From positions 1 through 20,698 of IMG/VR virus record IMGVR_UViG_3300046804_003146: a DNA stretch of 20,698 nucleotides, one strand, 5' to 3'. The notes under the pieces were generated by a model, which saw nothing but the letters and a program-made list of their open reading frames with translations, did not search any database and was not told the DNA's origin. The DNA is from a virus. Below are positions 2,807 to 18,600 of the stretch, one piece after another (the stretch's first letter is position 1; each line of letters opens with the position of its first letter). The position numbers and the translations under genes are program-made.

Positions 2807-4179
2807 GAACATTCGGGTCGGTACCGTACGGCGTAGACATTAATCAGCTAGGTGCCTCCGAGGTTCCTAGATTTTCTATTAACCAACCTTCTCCGTATAT
2901 CGATGGGTTGGTGGAAGATGTAATCGTTAACGAAAGCCATCCTCTATACTCCGCTGACGGGAGTAATTTGGGTGATATTCTTGTTAGAATTATTCCTGAT
3001 GACCGTGGTGTTCCAAAAGAAAAACTAAACTGGGCAAGTCCATTAGAATTTAGTATCCAAGAATTTCCTCTAAAAAATGAAACCGTACTAATTTTCTACT
3101 CGTTCGGAAAGTTATATTACACACGACCCGTAAACACAGCGAAAAAGGTAACAGAAAATTCTTGGCCTGGACTAAGTGCGAGATTTTCTCCTATTTCAAC
3201 AGCGGTCAATAGTGATTCAGCACAACTAGCAGCTCAAGGTGGACCCTCATACCAACCCTCCGAACCACAAGAAGCATTTACTCTGGGTAATGAGTTCAAG
3301 GAAAACGCCGATGTAAAACCGATTCGTGCAAATGAAGGGGATGTTATCTTACAAGGAAGATTCGGAAATATCATCAGATTTGGGTCTAGTTTATTTAGCA
3401 ACCAAACGACAACTTCACCAAAAGCCAATTTACTTATTACTGTGGGTCAAAATGCCACACCTAAAGAAGTCTCTACGGCTACAACGACCCAATACTCTCT
3501 AGTATACGAAGATATCAATAAAGATTTAAATTCTATCTGGTTAGTTACGGATGAAACGGTTCCATTTGAAGCAGCAACACTTAACACCGCATCCGGTAAT
3601 AAAGCACATTTACGGTCTACAGAAATATCAAGACAATCTCCATATTACACCGGAGCACAGATATTCGTAAATTCTGATAGAGTTATTTTAAACAGTAAAA
3701 AAAATGAAATGTCGTTGTTCTCTAAGTCGGAAATAAACCTTAGTGCTATCGGTTCTATTACCCTAGACTCCGAATCATCGGTGTTTATGACGGCTAATTC
3801 TGATATAAACCTTGTTGCAGCCGATGATTTGTTTCTAAAAGGTAATAATGTAGTACTTTCTTCTGTAAAAAATTTGTCATTTAAAACGGACGGTAATTAC
3901 ACAATTCTAGGTAAAAAGATATTTATAGGAACGTCAAATGACCCAACCGAACCTATGGTTCTGGGGGCGACATTGGCTAGTTTCTTAGGGAAGTTGATAG
4001 ACGTATTCACTACACAGTTACCATTGACCACTGTGGTGACGCCCGTTGGACCAGGTACAGCGGTATTTCTTCCTTTAATTACTGGGTTGAAGGCGTTACA
4101 ACTCAGCCAATTAGGATTAGTACCACAATCAGCGGTTTTCAACAGTACAGATAACTTTGTCACAAAGAAGAATGTATGA
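2803..4179 (+). CDS. Baseplate central spike/hub protein, gp5-like without lysozyme domain
   Basis: A 458-residue protein that should form the membrane-puncturing spike at the baseplate centre. An N-terminal OB-fold-like region (about residues 30-110, with VIVNESHPLYS and GDILVRIIP) is followed by the segment EGDVILQGRFGNIIRFG (about 178-195), which is characteristic of gp5/gpV/VgrG-like proteins. After that come short hydrophobic/polar repeats (about residues 285-365, such as EINLSAIGSITLDSESSVFM) consistent with a trimeric beta-helix or needle. T4 gp5 carries a lysozyme domain between the OB and needle parts; no such domain is seen here. A hydrophobic C-terminal stretch (LGATLASFLGKLIDVF) may pack the tip. 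Start and stop overlap both neighbours by 4 nt (ATGA). Confidence 0.75.
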   Translation: MRTFGSVPYGVDINQLGASEVPRFSINQPSPYIDGLVEDVIVNESHPLYSADGSNLGDILVRIIPDDRGVPKEKLNWASPLEFSIQEFPLKNETVLIFYSFGKLYYTRPVNTAKKVTENSWPGLSARFSPISTAVNSDSAQLAAQGGPSYQPSEPQEAFTLGNEFKENADVKPIRANEGDVILQGRFGNIIRFGSSLFSNQTTTSPKANLLITVGQNATPKEVSTATTTQYSLVYEDINKDLNSIWLVTDETVPFEAATLNTASGNKAHLRSTEISRQSPYYTGAQIFVNSDRVILNSKKNEMSLFSKSEINLSAIGSITLDSESSVFMTANSDINLVAADDLFLKGNNVVLSSVKNLSFKTDGNYTILGKKIFIGTSNDPTEPMVLGATLASFLGKLIDVFTTQLPLTTVVTPVGPGTAVFLPLITGLKALQLSQLGLVPQSAVFNSTDNFVTKKNV

Positions 4180-12800: not shown

Positions 12801-14150
12801 GTGGATGCACCAAGTGATTACGCAGAAGATATGGTCCCGGCCAGAGCAAAGTTGTTAAATGGAATTGTTATTGAGTCCTCTATCCTTGACCGTAATCGTT
12901 CAATTGTACAACCAAGTGTTGCTGTAGATGGTACGGCAACTAAAACATTTAATAATTATATTTCTGGGTCTGGGTCAGCTGATGTTGGAGCATATACGTT
13001 CGAGTTCTCATATCCAATCAGCGGGGTTCCAGATGTACTGTCTGATATCCTTCCGATGTCGGGTAACATTGATGTAACTGAAACCATTGGACCCGTCAGT
13101 AGTACGGCTCCAACTAAAATGCCAACGTTCAGACGTATTAAACAATATGTAAACAATGTGTTGGTTACTGCATCTATACTTGATGAAAACAGTTCATTTG
13201 ATGCATTGGAAGCAAATTCGATTGATGCAAACCCACGTGGAGATGTCACTTCATCGGGATATCCAAGAAATCCATACCTTGGTATTCCAAGTAGATTAGC
13301 AAGTGAAGAAAATACGTTGTTACCATATTACGATATTAGACCACGTGCCGACCTAACGGAAATTGGAACTACTTCATATTTCCACAAAAATAATGGTCAA
13401 TATTATTACGAATTTGACACCCTATACAGACAGTTGTATGTGGCTAAATTGGATACCAACGTATCCTCACCTCTTAACCAAGTATACGCAAATGTAACAT
13501 TGTTACAAACGGGTTCGCTTGTAGCAAAACCAGGTAGATATAGTTCAACTATCTCCACCACAACGGCTTATACTTCGGGGTCATACAATACGGGTGTCAT
13601 TAAGATGGCTAACTTGTTCTCTGTATATAACGTAAACGGCACATCGGGATTACGACTCAGACTGTATCGTGATAGTAATTCGAGAGATACGGACAGAACA
13701 CGGGCATTTACGACCGCTCCGACCGGTGACCATGGAGTTCTATTTGATGGATTACTCGAAGGTAATTCAGATGTATTCCCATACGTTATGATGCAAACAA
13801 CGGATTCCACCATTTATTATAGTATTGATAATACTACATCAAGTGATATAGCTCCAACCGATGTCGTATTGAGATATTTCGCCTATGACCCAGCAAGTCT
13901 GATTCCTATCGGATACCTCCCCCGCCACTACAAGTTTAGTCGGGATAATACTACGGCATTAAAGAGAAGAAATTATCTTGGATGTCGAGACGTTGGAACT
14001 ACATTTGATGGGTCGTCGCCTGTTATTGTTGGACCGTCCGTGGGTAATACTATTGTCGTCAATAGTACCAATATCCCATCGCAAAACATAAATTTACCAT
14101 CCGTCCCGCAAATTAGATTGGGGGGTGGGGGTCGATTAAGCGTCCAATAA
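9810..14150 (+). CDS. Very large baseplate/tail structural protein with LamG-like domain
   Basis: A 1446-residue virion protein, the largest gene in the window. An N-terminal helical part (about residues 1-140) is followed by a mixed region with EFLTLVAMFGHVMDNLKQYV (about 505-525) and VAETWKRFLHSAIYLSKTKG (about 575-595). Residues 645-800 read as a concanavalin/LamG-like jelly roll, with the terminal pattern KFDGIVDEVRLWGENIS. Beta-rich modules follow to a glycine-rich C-terminus (RLGGGGRLSV). Position after gp25-gp6 and the large size recall wedge protein gp7 (1032 residues in T4), but T4 gp7 is shorter and I cannot confirm homology. The LamG-like part suggests glycan binding or protein-protein contact at the periphery. 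Ends 63 nt before the next gene, the longest gap in the window. Confidence 0.7.
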   Translation: MSKIRVTWQNPDFLQKTYNKGKDGLGKEYTSDQYQITFTADELNRLLGEFDTKIANWSAFDGNAISNFFKESGESLSGAMVRQLKRELNRILFKNTLTNVYTYFPFSDKLATSQSKTNVMKYMLDILQSYRDITQRILNVESGLAEYADSTPTTGEKLPTLVEVPESKTQVTVGVTLVITKLQVPLLESLIKAVNTSITTKASTFFDDTRELKTLLNLGNDRQIVVQAWRKSPSNPSAIQLKLLSALDTNVALYDVAFISRELAKTVIDTIEFDLGPEADTTPYLRPMNTDVSKYIFNKRSLNEMTMETLGIATGSAGAIISGSQLSFDDRAFRRWFTSDFNSSELNIDFTDYNNFVYYGSAYSRLLSFKQKLLKIEELTSASISASVSSSTIGQSLKAIEKENIIRNFDGYEQFLYFATESFVYTASAYYNTSGVEYHATASWPKMSDGTPWSANSVTASNWLTVQGAIAQRYDENNPNYLTKHLPSHIQDNSDSIEFLTLVAMFGHVMDNLKQYVDQFGNVYSTNPNPFEELTMDQVYEVAQSFGLRLPNAYSIENLDTFISSIAGESGSRSLVAETWKRFLHSAIYLSKTKGSRTSFNALLNTYGLNSPILQIKETTYPGSSNYIQSDELTYGLGYTGSVESHIQIPFVSASIIAQTLQLRFNPSTRTSSSIVTGDQKWAIDIVPHPSSSKFDYGRIQVVSGSGRAVIATSSYFPLFSDDYTNIMLRSQSADISIIQTDGDQVLFQESASVSLGALWNSTTFVYIGGSGSIKLGNKFDGIVDEVRLWGENISNDDFVSQAYDPGSYYGTNYTSSRVNLYVHLPFSIPSASVTQSIVNESPYQNISVIPSVPAVGFTTASYERILRGIKQFTPIVGSTIYTNKKVHVVAPPTFSANFVDGDGTRVLSPNSSIKTIEEKQYTSGQNVVSFAISPTDFINQTILRTMGVVDVNNIIGSPRYVTGSSYPNLTELKNYFLSYYNEKINPNEYIRFFRNLVDAPSDYAEDMVPARAKLLNGIVIESSILDRNRSIVQPSVAVDGTATKTFNNYISGSGSADVGAYTFEFSYPISGVPDVLSDILPMSGNIDVTETIGPVSSTAPTKMPTFRRIKQYVNNVLVTASILDENSSFDALEANSIDANPRGDVTSSGYPRNPYLGIPSRLASEENTLLPYYDIRPRADLTEIGTTSYFHKNNGQYYYEFDTLYRQLYVAKLDTNVSSPLNQVYANVTLLQTGSLVAKPGRYSSTISTTTAYTSGSYNTGVIKMANLFSVYNVNGTSGLRLRLYRDSNSRDTDRTRAFTTAPTGDHGVLFDGLLEGNSDVFPYVMMQTTDSTIYYSIDNTTSSDIAPTDVVLRYFAYDPASLIPIGYLPRHYKFSRDNTTALKRRNYLGCRDVGTTFDGSSPVIVGPSVGNTIVVNSTNIPSQNINLPSVPQIRLGGGGRLSVQ

Positions 14151-14213: not shown

Positions 14214-14873
14214 ATGGGATACCTAGATAAATCCACAATTACCGTGGACGCTATATTAACCAATCGTGGACGGGAACTTTTGTCGCAAGGTACCGGCACG
14301 GGTAATTTCCAAATTACCAAGTTCGCTGTTGCAGACGATGAAGTGGACTACGGGCTATACAACACCGCCCACCCACTAGGGTCCAACTATTATGGGGCTG
14401 TCATCGAAAATATGCCAGTCTTGGAAGCAACTCCTGACGAAACCCAAATCATGCGATATAAGTTGGTTACCATCACGGGTAACGACTTGACTCGCTTTGG
14501 AAGTGTAGTCATTCCACAAATCGTTATCCAAGGAACCACGCTTCCAGCAAACAAGACGATTTACCTTTACTTTGACCCAACCCAAGGTACTAACACGATT
14601 ACTATTCGTCCAATCACTACATACACAGACAGTTCATCTGAAACAGAAAGTGTATACACATTGATGTTGGCGGACAGTACCTTAGCCTCTGTGGAAGTTG
14701 TCAACCCAGCAGCGGGATTGGTATCAGCAAATAATCGTGGGTCAATCGTCGCAAACGGGTTAGAATTTAACATCAAGGCACTTAACAAGACTGGTACCAC
14801 CTCGGTTAGTATTTATGGTGGTAGTTCTGGTGCTGTATATAACTTTACTCTTACGACCACCGCTTCAGCATAA
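14214..14873 (+). CDS. Virion structural protein, conserved in aquatic T4-like phages
   Basis: A 219-residue protein. The N-terminal pattern MGYLDKSTITVDAILTNRGR, then FAVADDEVDYGLYN and HPLGSNYYG, is one I recognise from structural proteins of aquatic T4-like phages; the exact place in the virion is not known to me. The C-terminal 65 residues (from about 155) look like an immunoglobulin-type domain ending in SIYGGSSGAVYNFTLTT. Codons end in C more often than in the genes before it (acc, aac, ttc), and it has its own candidate promoter, both suggesting abundant expression. It is followed after 14 nt by a second structural gene. Confidence 0.75.
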   Translation: MGYLDKSTITVDAILTNRGRELLSQGTGTGNFQITKFAVADDEVDYGLYNTAHPLGSNYYGAVIENMPVLEATPDETQIMRYKLVTITGNDLTRFGSVVIPQIVIQGTTLPANKTIYLYFDPTQGTNTITIRPITTYTDSSSETESVYTLMLADSTLASVEVVNPAAGLVSANNRGSIVANGLEFNIKALNKTGTTSVSIYGGSSGAVYNFTLTTTASA

Positions 14874-14887
14874 TCTAGGAACTTTAT

Positions 14888-15961
14888 ATGGCATATAATA
14901 TATTCACACAATTCGTTGCAGCTGACGACATTACCACGATTCGTGCAAATGAAGTCACTACGGGATTATGGACTGGAGACACGGGAAGTCTTTCAGCAGT
15001 GTACACTTCAAGTGTTCAAGTAGCTAACTCTGGTGAGTTCTACTACGATTTGTATAACGGTGCAAGTCCAACAACTTCCGATATCCAATTCTCAGTAGCT
15101 TACGGTCACGTAAGTGGTGGTGGGTCACCGACTCTTGCTACAAACGCAAATTCGACTCTCCCAACTCAAGTTATCTATTCTCAATATCGTAACATTCTTC
15201 TCGCAGAAGATGTTGAAAAGTTCTCATTTAACGGTGTAGATTCAAATGATATTTATGTTATCAATATTCAACGGGCTCGATTAAAGCAAGCAATCGACCC
15301 AGGCAACTGGCAATTAGGATTGTCTGGTTCAAAAGGACTATTTACATTTATTGATAATAGTGGACTTGGCACCGCAGTTGCTGGTAACCTTGTAGCAAAT
15401 AATGTATACGAAATCCGTTCTGGTAGTTTGACAGCTGGATTACATACAGCAAATACTCAATCATTTGGATTAGTATTCCCGGACTTCGGAGTTATGATTC
15501 TTTCACCGTCAGCAATCAGTTCTTCTGTCGGACTTACTGGGTCAAACTCAGTAGTTGACGCTAAGACTAAGTATCCAGCACTAAACCAACCATATGCACC
15601 ATACACTGGAAGTGCAGCAACTTCATATCAATATCAACATGAAGGGTTGGTTCGTTCCATCTCTGGCTCAATGGCCGCTGGTTCACCATTTATCGCACGG
15701 TCAGCAGAAAGTATTACTTCAACAAACTACTTCGTTCGATTAAAGAATAGTAACTACAACTACTCAAATAATCCAACTTACTATACTGGTTCAAATCCAC
15801 AAAACGTTCTTGAACCATTCCGTGTCAAGCCAATTACTTATGCTACAACAATCGGTTTATATAATGACCAAAACGAATTGTTAGCAGTAGCAAAACTCAG
15901 TAGACCAGTACAAAAGAGTACCGACAAGGAAGCATTAATTCGCGTTCGACTAGATTACTAA
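14888..15961 (+). CDS. Virion structural protein with shared C-terminal module (first copy)
   Basis: A 357-residue protein beginning MAYNIFTQFVAADDITTIRA. The last 70 residues (about 288-357) contain NYNYSNNPTYYTGS, then TTIGLYNDQNELLAVAKLSR, and end RVRLDY. The next gene ends with a clearly related module, so the two C-termini share an origin. The N-terminal part (about residues 90-285) is beta-rich, with Gly/Ser-rich loops. Similar C-termini are, from memory, found in structural proteins of marine T4-like phages. Its place in the particle is unknown; a tail-fibre or capsid-decoration role is possible. Confidence 0.7.
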   Translation: MAYNIFTQFVAADDITTIRANEVTTGLWTGDTGSLSAVYTSSVQVANSGEFYYDLYNGASPTTSDIQFSVAYGHVSGGGSPTLATNANSTLPTQVIYSQYRNILLAEDVEKFSFNGVDSNDIYVINIQRARLKQAIDPGNWQLGLSGSKGLFTFIDNSGLGTAVAGNLVANNVYEIRSGSLTAGLHTANTQSFGLVFPDFGVMILSPSAISSSVGLTGSNSVVDAKTKYPALNQPYAPYTGSAATSYQYQHEGLVRSISGSMAAGSPFIARSAESITSTNYFVRLKNSNYNYSNNPTYYTGSNPQNVLEPFRVKPITYATTIGLYNDQNELLAVAKLSRPVQKSTDKEALIRVRLDY

Positions 15962-15983
15962 ACCGCTTAATGGGTGGATATTT

Positions 15984-16811
15984 ATGACCAAACCTGTTAC
16001 TGCGTTTAAGTCACTAGCACCAAATGAATATACGATAACCCCGTTTCATGCGTACTCGTCACAAACGTATACGTATGTTTCGGGGTCCACCAGTAATTCG
16101 GTAGATGTAAATTTCTTGTTTGGTCGTAAGTATAGTACTTCAAGTGGATTACGGGTGGAAAATGCTGAACAAGAATTGTTTGATTCTGTAATACAAACAT
16201 TCTATTCTATACTTCCATCGACTCAATATGGTATCACACCATCATCGTATATTCCAACTGGGTCGGTATACGTAATCAGTATTACACAAGATATATTCGG
16301 TGAACAAATTCAGCCAAATACGATGAAGGTTACTATCGGTACATCATCGTCGTATGATGACGGAAAAGGTAATATGTACGTCTCGTCATCTGTTGGTAGT
16401 GGTTCAATTATTGGTTCAATCTTTTATGAAAAGGGTGTAGTATTATTAAAGACTACATCAAGTATCGCTGGTGGTGGAATATCAAATGATGGTGTCTATG
16501 TAGGAAATGGAAACAGTGTGCAAGTGCAATTCAGTTCATCAGTAATGTTACACGAACATGCTGTTAAAGTTAAACTGAATCCATCGGAATATAACTACTC
16601 GTTATATAATCCGACGACCAACAAGATTATGTATACGGGGTCAGCATCGCTTCCACGGGATTTAATGGCATCACAAAGTTTACTCCCATACATTACAACC
16701 ATCGGGTTATATAATGAAGCAAATGAATTGGTTGCAGTAGGAAAACTATCAAATCCAATTCAACGGACTTCTGATAGTACTCAAACCTTCGTTGTAAAAT
16801 TTGACACCTAA
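15984..16811 (+). CDS. Virion structural protein with shared C-terminal module (second copy)
   Basis: A 275-residue protein whose N-terminal 200 residues differ from the preceding gene but whose C-terminus is related to it: EYNYSLYN, YTGSAS, TTIGLYNEANELVAVGKLSN, ending FVVKFDT. The N-terminal part begins MTKPVTAFKSLAPNEYTITP and has SGSTSNSVDVNFLFGR and a Ser/Gly-rich region. The 22-nt gap upstream holds only a weak GGTGG ribosome binding site, so its expression may depend on read-through or coupling. A structural role is inferred from composition and neighbours. Confidence 0.7.
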   Translation: MTKPVTAFKSLAPNEYTITPFHAYSSQTYTYVSGSTSNSVDVNFLFGRKYSTSSGLRVENAEQELFDSVIQTFYSILPSTQYGITPSSYIPTGSVYVISITQDIFGEQIQPNTMKVTIGTSSSYDDGKGNMYVSSSVGSGSIIGSIFYEKGVVLLKTTSSIAGGGISNDGVYVGNGNSVQVQFSSSVMLHEHAVKVKLNPSEYNYSLYNPTTNKIMYTGSASLPRDLMASQSLLPYITTIGLYNEANELVAVGKLSNPIQRTSDSTQTFVVKFDT

Positions 16812-16829
16812 TAGTGGTGGAGAAATATT

Positions 16830-17282
16830 ATGAGTTTAGTAGATTTATATAATCAAGCTGCAAACGGAACCTATGTCGGCGAAGTTAAAGCAAAGCAAGC
16901 TACCGACGTTGGTGCGAAAGATGGTGTAAACTTTATGGATGGAACTCGTCGCCGCAATCCAGAACCAGATGAATTCCAAACCGAATTTAAGAGAAACGCA
17001 GAAGGTACCTATGCAGTTGGTGGAGCACAAGGAACTGTATCTCCAACCAATAATAAGACCTACGAACTTTCTCGCTGGACTCCAAAATCTCTAAAATTGG
17101 CATTCGAACAAGAAGGGCCAGCTTCCTTAAGTAGCGGATTTTACAACAACAGATTCAGAACCGCAACAACTGCTAAAGGAACTCAAATTATACACAATTA
17201 CACCCCACTTAACAACAAGGGATATGTAAATTTGAATTCTTTTGCGGCAGCTCGGGTCAACTCATCAGCAACAAGTTTCTAA
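16830..17282 (+). CDS. Small virion-region protein, unknown
   Basis: A 150-residue protein beginning MSLVDLYNQAANGTYVGE, with a basic/hydrophilic middle (DGTRRRNPEPDEFQTEFKR) and a C-terminal half of short Asn/Thr-rich segments (LSSGFYNNRFRTATTA, NNKGYVNLNSFAAARVN). Little predicted regular structure; it may be a linker or partly disordered particle protein. It has a clear GGTGGAG ribosome binding site 9 nt upstream and is the last gene of the structural block. No family recognised with certainty. Confidence 0.6.
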   Translation: MSLVDLYNQAANGTYVGEVKAKQATDVGAKDGVNFMDGTRRRNPEPDEFQTEFKRNAEGTYAVGGAQGTVSPTNNKTYELSRWTPKSLKLAFEQEGPASLSSGFYNNRFRTATTAKGTQIIHNYTPLNNKGYVNLNSFAAARVNSSATSF

Positions 17283-17296
17283 TATAAGAGGTTACA

Positions 17297-17647
17297 ATGA
17301 AACCACGTAGTGCAAAAAATAAAGGTAAACGGTTACAAAACGCAGTTCGAGATATGATTTTAGAAAACTTCACACAATTGGAACCCGATGATGTGGTTTC
17401 AACTTTGATGGGTGATAGTGGAACAGATATTAAATTGTCACCTGCGGCCCGTAAGGTGTTTCCATACTCTCCAGAGTGCAAGAACCAAGAAAAGATGAAC
17501 ATCTGGGCGTCTCTGGAACAAGCAGAAGGGAATACGAAAGAAGGGACTACTCCCGTTCTATTCTTTAAGAGAAATAATACACCAGTGTACGCGGTTATTC
17601 CCGCAGAACACTTTTTTCAATTAGTTAATAAAAAACCAGTTGAATAA
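17297..17647 (+). CDS. PD-(D/E)XK-type nuclease
   Basis: A 116-residue protein with the core of the PD-(D/E)XK nuclease fold. Gly10 and Gln14 lie in the first helix (KGKRLQNAVRDMI), followed by MGDSGTDIKLSPAARKVFP with Asp44, then the strand SPECKNQE with Glu60-x-Lys62, and a final helix IWASLEQAEGNTKEG followed by TTPVLFFKR. Asp44, Glu60 and Lys62 are the candidate metal-binding and catalytic residues. Small enzymes of this pattern in phages are often labelled Holliday-junction resolvase-like or recombination nucleases; the substrate is not readable. It stands between the structural genes and the primase, upstream of the primase promoter, so it is probably co-transcribed with the structural genes. 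Ribosome binding site AGAGGTT. Confidence 0.7.
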   Translation: MKPRSAKNKGKRLQNAVRDMILENFTQLEPDDVVSTLMGDSGTDIKLSPAARKVFPYSPECKNQEKMNIWASLEQAEGNTKEGTTPVLFFKRNNTPVYAVIPAEHFFQLVNKKPVE

Positions 17648-17653
17648 GAAAAC

Positions 17654-17682
17654 TTGACAATTTGCAGAAGAGGGGTTAGATT
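17654..17682 (+). promoter_or_regulatory. Sigma70-type promoter before the primase
   Basis: TTGACA at 17654-17659 is a perfect -35 hexamer; 17 bp later TAGATT (17677-17682) matches 4 of 6 of the -10. Spacing is optimal. The expected start is near 17689, almost at the ATG of the primase (17689), so the mRNA may be leaderless or nearly so. It separates structural from replication genes and is probably read by host RNA polymerase early in infection. Confidence 0.6.
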
Positions 17683-17717
17683 TCATATATGAATCTAATC
17701 TCTCTTTTGTCGCAAAT
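17660..17717 (+). repeat. Long inverted repeat spanning the primase start codon
   Basis: Bases 17664-17682 pair with 17692-17710 in 19 consecutive pairs, of which 4 are G-U. The loop, 17683-17691, contains the start codon (17689-17691), and the purine-rich ribosome-binding-like GAGGGG (17670-17675) lies within the stem. An outer six-pair helix (17660-17665 with 17712-17717) can form as an alternative extension, with a three-base bulge. In RNA made by read-through this would bury the ribosome binding site. A transcript from the promoter at 17654-17682 lacks the left arm. Confidence 0.6.
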
Positions 17718-18600
17718 ATTAGGTGATTATAAGCAATTTGGGAACGGGGAACACTATTTCTCGTGCCCTTTCTGTCATCACCAAAAGAGAAAATTCGCTG
17801 TTAATTTATTAAAAAACGTTTTTCATTGTTGGCACTGTGGAGCAAAAGGACGTTCTTTAATAACATTATTTAAGAGACTGGATGTATCCCCTTCACAAAT
17901 GAAGGAGTTGCGGTCACTACTTTCTGATGACCAAGTACGGAATTACGTAGAATCCGCAGATGAAGTTACAAGCTTACATCTTCCACCTGGATACAAGCCG
18001 TTATGGATACCCACCAAGAGCTTACATTATAAACACGCCTTACGATATCTTACAAATAGAGGTATTAAGGGGTATGACATTATCCGCTACCAGATGGGAT
18101 ATACCATTGACGGTCCATATGCGAATCGTATCATTATTCCGTCATACGATAAAGACAATAAGTTGAACTATTTTATCGCTCGTAGTTTTTATGAAGATGG
18201 GATGAAGTATAAGAATCCACCCGTGTCAAAAAACGTGGTGATGTTTGAGAATCAAATTAATTGGAAGATGCCTGTGGTTCTCTGTGAAGGTGTATTCGAC
18301 GCGATTGCAATCCGTCGAAATGCTATACCACTCTTGGGTAAGTTTGTACCCAAAAAGTTGTTGAAAGAACTGGTCAAGAATAAAGTAAAAGATGTGTATG
18401 TTGTACTAGACGATGATGCATTGACAGATGCAAGAGAAATCGAACGAACGTTGAACGCTTATGAAATGAATGTCAAGCTGGTAAACCTTGACAAGAAAGA
18501 CCCTTCGGAGTTAGGTTTCAAAGATACGTGGGAATGTATCGAGCGTGGGTCCGCAACAACATTTAAAGACTATATTGGTGGCAGGTTACAGAATATATGA
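17689..18600 (+). CDS. DNA primase, zinc-finger plus TOPRIM
   Basis: A 303-residue primase of the DnaG/T4 gp61 type. The N-terminal zinc-binding domain has Cys26, Cys29, Cys47 and Cys50 (CPFCHH and CWHCG), the CHC2-type pattern for template recognition. The catalytic TOPRIM has Glu200 in EGVFDA and the Asp cluster 241-243 in VVLDDDA, which bind metal for RNA primer synthesis. Slightly shorter than T4 gp61 (342). The preceding codons in frame hit a stop (TAG 17677-17679), so ATG 17689 is the first possible ATG start. It lies inside the loop of a long inverted repeat and just after a sigma70-like promoter. The stop overlaps the next ATG by 4 nt (ATGA). Confidence 0.9.
   Translation: MNLISLLSQILGDYKQFGNGEHYFSCPFCHHQKRKFAVNLLKNVFHCWHCGAKGRSLITLFKRLDVSPSQMKELRSLLSDDQVRNYVESADEVTSLHLPPGYKPLWIPTKSLHYKHALRYLTNRGIKGYDIIRYQMGYTIDGPYANRIIIPSYDKDNKLNYFIARSFYEDGMKYKNPPVSKNVVMFENQINWKMPVVLCEGVFDAIAIRRNAIPLLGKFVPKKLLKELVKNKVKDVYVVLDDDALTDAREIERTLNAYEMNVKLVNLDKKDPSELGFKDTWECIERGSATTFKDYIGGRLQNI

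Follow-up and report, generated by a model that had tools for sequence, protein, structure and literature searches.

Gene content of the window and the primase junction

The stretch of DNA analysed here, referred to as the window, is 20,698 nt (20.7-kb) long and corresponds to positions 1 to 20,698 of IMG/VR record IMGVR_UViG_3300046804_003146. By its sequence the phage is a T4-superfamily myovirus from an uncultured T4-like lake phage group. The capsid of a close relative had its best matches in Flavobacterium phage immuto, an uncultured 484-kb phage, Microcystis phage Mel-JY01 and Rhodothermus phage RM378, with T4-like phages placed after those. The genes and signals around the primase start were as follows.

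14214 to 17282, plus strand: gene block upstream of RusA, read as tail/structural from context
17297 to 17647, plus strand: RusA-like Holliday junction resolvase, last gene before the primase
17654 to 17659, plus strand: -35 hexamer TTGACA
17664 to 17682, plus strand: hairpin left arm, lying within the promoter spacer and -10
17670 to 17675, plus strand: purine run GAGGGG in the stem, not at the standard Shine-Dalgarno position
17677 to 17682, plus strand: -10 hexamer TAGATT, 6 nt before the ATG
17683 to 17691, plus strand: hairpin loop of 9 nt, containing the ATG (17689 to 17691)
17692 to 17710, plus strand: hairpin right arm, equal to primase codons 2 to 7 plus the first base of codon 8
17689 to 18600, plus strand: DnaG-type primase (CHC2 zinc ribbon), 303 aa
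18597 to 20696, plus strand: SbcD-SbcC-like fused nuclease gene, truncated by the window end

The upstream block, in which the genes at 14888 and 15984 have related segments in common, is the presumed source of read-through RNA into the primase, whose ATG lies 41 nt beyond the RusA stop. The SbcD-SbcC-like gene overlaps the primase stop, so that the two probably form one operon. Its SbcD- and SbcC-like parts (T4 gp47 and gp46) are a single open reading frame in the window as well as in the relative G008, a 98.8-kb contig (L084, 3668 to 6832; 1054 aa). We considered other starts for the primase and retained the ATG at 17689, because a TAG closes the frame 12 nt upstream in the window and the TTG at codon 7 is not kept, being TTA in other subclades. 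None of the bacterial genomes searched for the primase carried it.

A phage-borne IMP dehydrogenase was observed at 3 to 845 of the window, and the nearest genome matches of its G008 counterpart were two Chitinophagaceae MAG contigs at 64%. The presence of SD-like GGAG and TTGACA promoters argues against a typical Bacteroidota host; counter to this are the Chitinophagaceae matches of the IMP dehydrogenase and the nearest isolate by capsid, a Flavobacterium phage.

Stability of the hairpin over the primase start

The initial annotation placed the primase ATG in the 9-nt loop of a 19-pair hairpin spanning the RusA-primase junction, and all 19 pairs were verified base by base, four of them being G.U pairs (at 17664, 17667, 17673 and 17675). 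The annotation had also proposed comparing the stability of this fold with that of altered sequences, and the native sequence proved the more stable in each comparison. The minimum free energy of 17654 to 17717 was -24.5 kcal/mol; dinucleotide shuffles averaged -9.7 +/- 2.5, which gives a z of -5.84, and none of the 200 was as good. When codons 2 to 9 of the window were recoded synonymously with phage codon usage, none of the 2000 versions was as stable as the native one, and the same test applied to ten representatives gave at most 15 of 2000 versions matching the native energy in any of them. The primase start was the strongest fold among the 109 starts of G008 (-23.2, the next being -17.1), and it ranked second of all starts in G027, a member of subclade C. 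An Rfam covariance-model search of the window returned no matches at gathering score.

Conservation and covariation

Relatives were collected by protein and pattern scans of viral contigs and comprise the window clade and subclades A (L140, L141), B (L134-L136), C (L137-L139, L142, L143), D (L144) and E (L157, L158). Primases of the window clade are about 60-64% identical to those of the other subclades. The stem was present in the window clade and in A to E, at least six subclades, and the one exception among the contigs was L014. Upstream DNA is deleted in both L014, where the left arm is gone, and L005, where both hairpin arms remain. These two deletions (upstream of position 4001) share a left breakpoint in RusA and have two different endpoints at the primase start, and in L014 RusA is apparently fused in frame to the primase; both may be assembly artefacts.

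Across 20 distinct rows of the alignment, 95.9% of cells were paired, compared with 38-62% in slid-partner controls, and the covariation score was 0.136 against 0.092 for shuffled data (0 of 500). Compensatory changes in related phages, which the initial annotation had suggested looking for, were indeed found and the arms were conserved: pair 18-60 occurs as A-U, G-C, U-A and also G-U, and pair 24-54 as G-C or U-A. At both pairs the coding change is a synonymous third-base change (Leu6 and Ile4, respectively), each matched in the non-coding arm, and the covariation amounts to few independent events (two or three pairs). Chance or coding-driven complementarity is ruled out by the shuffles, the synonymous recoding and the covariation.

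Synonymous change in codons 2 to 8 was below that of degeneracy-matched codons elsewhere (P 0.0006). Codons 9 to 12 (17711 to 17728 in the window), just past the stem, were likewise conserved synonymously, with CAA and ATA invariant in 25 sequences, and alignment folding suggested a small second helix near them. Part of the codon constraint may thus have another cause.

Non-Watson-Crick cells in the core of the stem included 43 G.T (G.U in RNA) and no A.C. Since all departures are of this kind, the selected structure appears to be plus-strand RNA and not a DNA operator. In an operator the inverted repeat would bind a dimeric repressor and so keep the nested promoter closed, and the repeat does overlap the spacer, -10 and start region of that promoter. 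Its half-sites, however, are separated by loops of 9-13 nt across relatives (9 nt in the window), a difference of up to 4 bp, and DNA recognition would not impose an RNA-pairing rule that admits G.T and excludes A.C. The TTGACA-TAGATT element with the left arm was, moreover, found once per relative. Spacing and the G.U/A.C asymmetry lead us to discard the operator, which is strongly disfavoured and highly improbable. Covariation, strand-specific tolerance of G.U and synonymous constraint together support the hairpin as a selected RNA structure.

A predicted promoter overlapping the left arm

In the window, TTGACA and TAGATT are separated by a 17 nt spacer and the promoter overlaps the hairpin left arm; the -10 is only a 4/6 match. 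From the spacing of the -10, transcription is predicted to start at about 17688-17690, on or beside the A of the ATG. A core of ACTTG-N20-TANNNT was found in 21 of 22 haplotypes, its -10 lying 6-10 nt ahead of the ATG, and subclade E, read by eye, also carries it. All intact relatives thus retain ACTTG and the TTG-N20-TA core, which supports an expected start at or within a few bases of the ATG in every intact relative. CTTGACA-N-TATA(T/C)T promoters recur in other intergenic stretches of these phages, so the primase -35 is of the group's own type. The full TTGACA is confined to the window clade and B, while the corresponding hexamer is TTGTTT in A, D and E, and C combines TTGATT with TAGTTT or TAGTAT; in these four subclades the promoter may be weak, aided by some activator, or gone. 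The overlap of a promoter with the left arm and a start near the ATG, as first proposed, therefore stands by sequence, but the complete TTGACA is missing in four subclades that keep the hairpin. We regard the promoter as well supported in the window clade and in B and less so in the other subclades, with the hairpin the better-conserved part.

This persistence of the hairpin where the -35 is degraded would also be expected of a translational operator, or of an enhancer holding the AUG in a loop, that acts on every primase RNA and overlaps the promoter only incidentally. T4 offers precedents for both, with enhancing structures at genes 25 and 38 and a protein-bound hairpin at gene 43 (PMC3014915). 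The split-SD hairpins of genes 25 and 38 resemble the present one as conserved structures at a phage start site; they differ in lying between the SD and the AUG, where they aid translation (PMC3014915). The primase stem is not between an SD and the AUG and is very stable for an enhancer (about -19 to -27 kcal/mol), and neither the sequence nor the length of the loop is conserved as a bound operator would be, so that we regard this explanation as quite unlikely.

From about 22 to 77 kb of G008, the only TTGACA match in non-coding DNA is the primase promoter, and no other non-coding TTGACA promoter of this contig has a -10 as near to a start, bar that at the open reading frame start 13038, which is misplaced, having its own GGAGG and ATG just downstream. 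At 13007 to 13037 of G008 (L082), a TTGACA promoter lies over a GGGG...CCCC hairpin with a T-rich tail, followed by GGAGG and ATG, a terminator-promoter overlap.

Other signals were also observed. The motif (A)CTATTTATA occurs at 2386 to 2406 of the window and at many G008 sites (L082-L086). There are 20 copies of TATTTATA on the G008 plus strand versus none of TATAAATA. The former matches, in reverse complement, the T4 late promoter and is over-represented 30-43 nt ahead of gene starts, many of which belong to structural genes; it is a candidate late promoter or other signal. The unassigned 246-aa protein encoded at 1637 to 2377 of the window resembles, by eye, a gp55-type late sigma factor; no credible match was found in PHROGs or PDB, and we do not claim this identity.

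Absence of a spaced Shine-Dalgarno sequence

The purine-rich bases of the stem had been described initially as ribosome-binding-like. They are poorly placed for such a role: GAGGGG ends 13 nt before the ATG, and in no subclade does the stem purine run come closer than 13 nt, whereas other G008 genes have a purine-rich SD (GGAG) at about -11 to -7. No Shine-Dalgarno sequence at a working distance of the primase ATG was found in any subclade. With the -10 also adjoining the ATG, the local primase message probably has no leader or only a very short one. Leaderless translation is inefficient in many bacteria. The predicted message is similar to that of lambda cI from PRM, a leaderless phage mRNA whose transcription starts at the AUG and which has no SD; lambda cI is not known to have its start codon locked by a hairpin in read-through RNA.

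Termination and possible insulation at the junction

We found no convincing terminator between the tail genes and the primase in the window clade or in subclades A to E. One weak terminator match was observed in the window, inside RusA, and was absent in the relatives tested. In the cultured relatives Mel-JY01 and immuto (L103, L104), ordinary intrinsic terminators lie just upstream of the primase, so lineages seem to differ in how they insulate this junction. Marine relatives (L019-L080; 40-46% identity) keep the gene order, and neither hairpin nor terminator was found at their primase junction. A Bacteroidota-type promoter, TTG...TATATTTG, was observed in them about 20 nt before the primase ATG.

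The terminators of Mel-JY01 and immuto indicate that insulation is wanted at this junction, and the hairpin could itself be an intrinsic terminator of the tail-gene transcript, unable to form on RNA from the nested promoter. However, no T-run follows the stem, the sequence there being TTTTGTCGC in the window and CTTATCAC, ATTATCGC and GTTATCGC in relatives, while the likely terminators of the group end in TTTTT. Lacking a conserved T-run, the terminator was rejected as a very unlikely explanation.

Predicted folding of read-through and local RNA

The initial annotation held that read-through RNA would be folded and local RNA open, and the predicted folds bear this out. Opening the start site was predicted to cost about 22 kcal/mol when the RNA is read-through and 1.4 when it is local, and over 13 representatives the cost ranged from 14.6-23.4 kcal/mol in read-through RNA versus 0.1-1.4 for RNA starting at the ATG. 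Among 87 genes of G008, the primase was the costliest to open.

A stem at the boundary between gene blocks, with 17-20 base pairs kept by covariation and a variable loop, would also suit an RNase III-type processing site, at which cutting of the duplex cripples or removes the primase start and separates the tail from the replication messages. Processing, however, would not require the site to be centred on the ATG or to coincide with a promoter in each relative, and folding alone already hides the start; we judge it unlikely that processing is the main role of the stem.

The reading that we consider moderately probable is that the hairpin is a cis-acting lock on translation, dependent on which promoter made the RNA, with a leaderless local message. 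RNA entering from the tail and RusA genes would hold both arms and fold, hiding a primase start that also has no properly spaced Shine-Dalgarno sequence in such RNA. RNA from the nested promoter would begin at the ATG or about 0-3 nt from it, would have no left arm and so remain unstructured, and could be translated as a leaderless or near-leaderless message. The primase and the overlapping SbcDC gene would then rely on a sigma-70-like, early-type promoter of their own and be shielded from structural-block read-through. A switch that turns the primase off once late transcription prevails would be plausible in such an arrangement.

Comparison with known start-site hairpins

Hairpin devices with a measured effect have been described at T4 e, soc, 49 and I-TevI and at Aeh1 mobE (PMC3014915, PMC2988022), the effect being 100-fold for gene e (PMC3014915). 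A review describes all the T4 genes and homing endonucleases in which the device is known as late genes carried on early/middle RNA (PMC2988022). In T4 e (lysozyme), soc and 49, as proposed for the primase, the start is hidden in upstream-initiated RNA, and a promoter near the 5' strand gives open RNA (PMC3014915). In these late genes it is the early/middle RNA that is hidden and the late RNA that is open, and an SD is concealed, whereas the primase, a replication gene, follows structural genes, has a sigma-70-like promoter and no spaced SD, and carries its AUG in the loop. I-TevI is alike in having a promoter immediately upstream of the gene, the local RNA of which cannot form the hairpin (PMC2988022). 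I-TevI/II/III, segB and Aeh1 mobE differ in that all are described as late genes within polycistronic early/middle transcripts (PMC2988022) and in that the hidden element is an RBS about 8 nt from the AUG.

The primase shares with the T4 e and I-TevI class a stable structure over the translation start in upstream-initiated RNA and, by sequence, a promoter placed so that local RNA would be without the 5' arm, the full -35 being present in the window clade and B only. It has no well-spaced SD sequestered in the stem, and, with its TTGACA-type promoter, it is not a late gene with a late promoter in an early/middle transcript. The hairpin would thus work like this class without being a strict member, because the polarity is reversed and a spaced SD is lacking. 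The comparison with T4 gene e in reverse, drawn in the initial annotation, was apt in its logic, and I-TevI and mobE are equally close.

We put forward only tentatively, as slightly short of an even chance, the fuller reading that the primase start is locked save in leaderless RNA from the buried promoter, so that an early-type gene is silenced in structural read-through, the reverse of the T4 late-gene device. If true, a covarying device on a replication gene behind structural genes, with the promoter within the stem and a probably leaderless message, would mean that the T4 late-gene device is reversible, and it would be one way for genomes with nearly all genes on a single strand to deal with read-through. 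It would also offer a clean case, testable with reporters, of translation dependent on the origin of the RNA.
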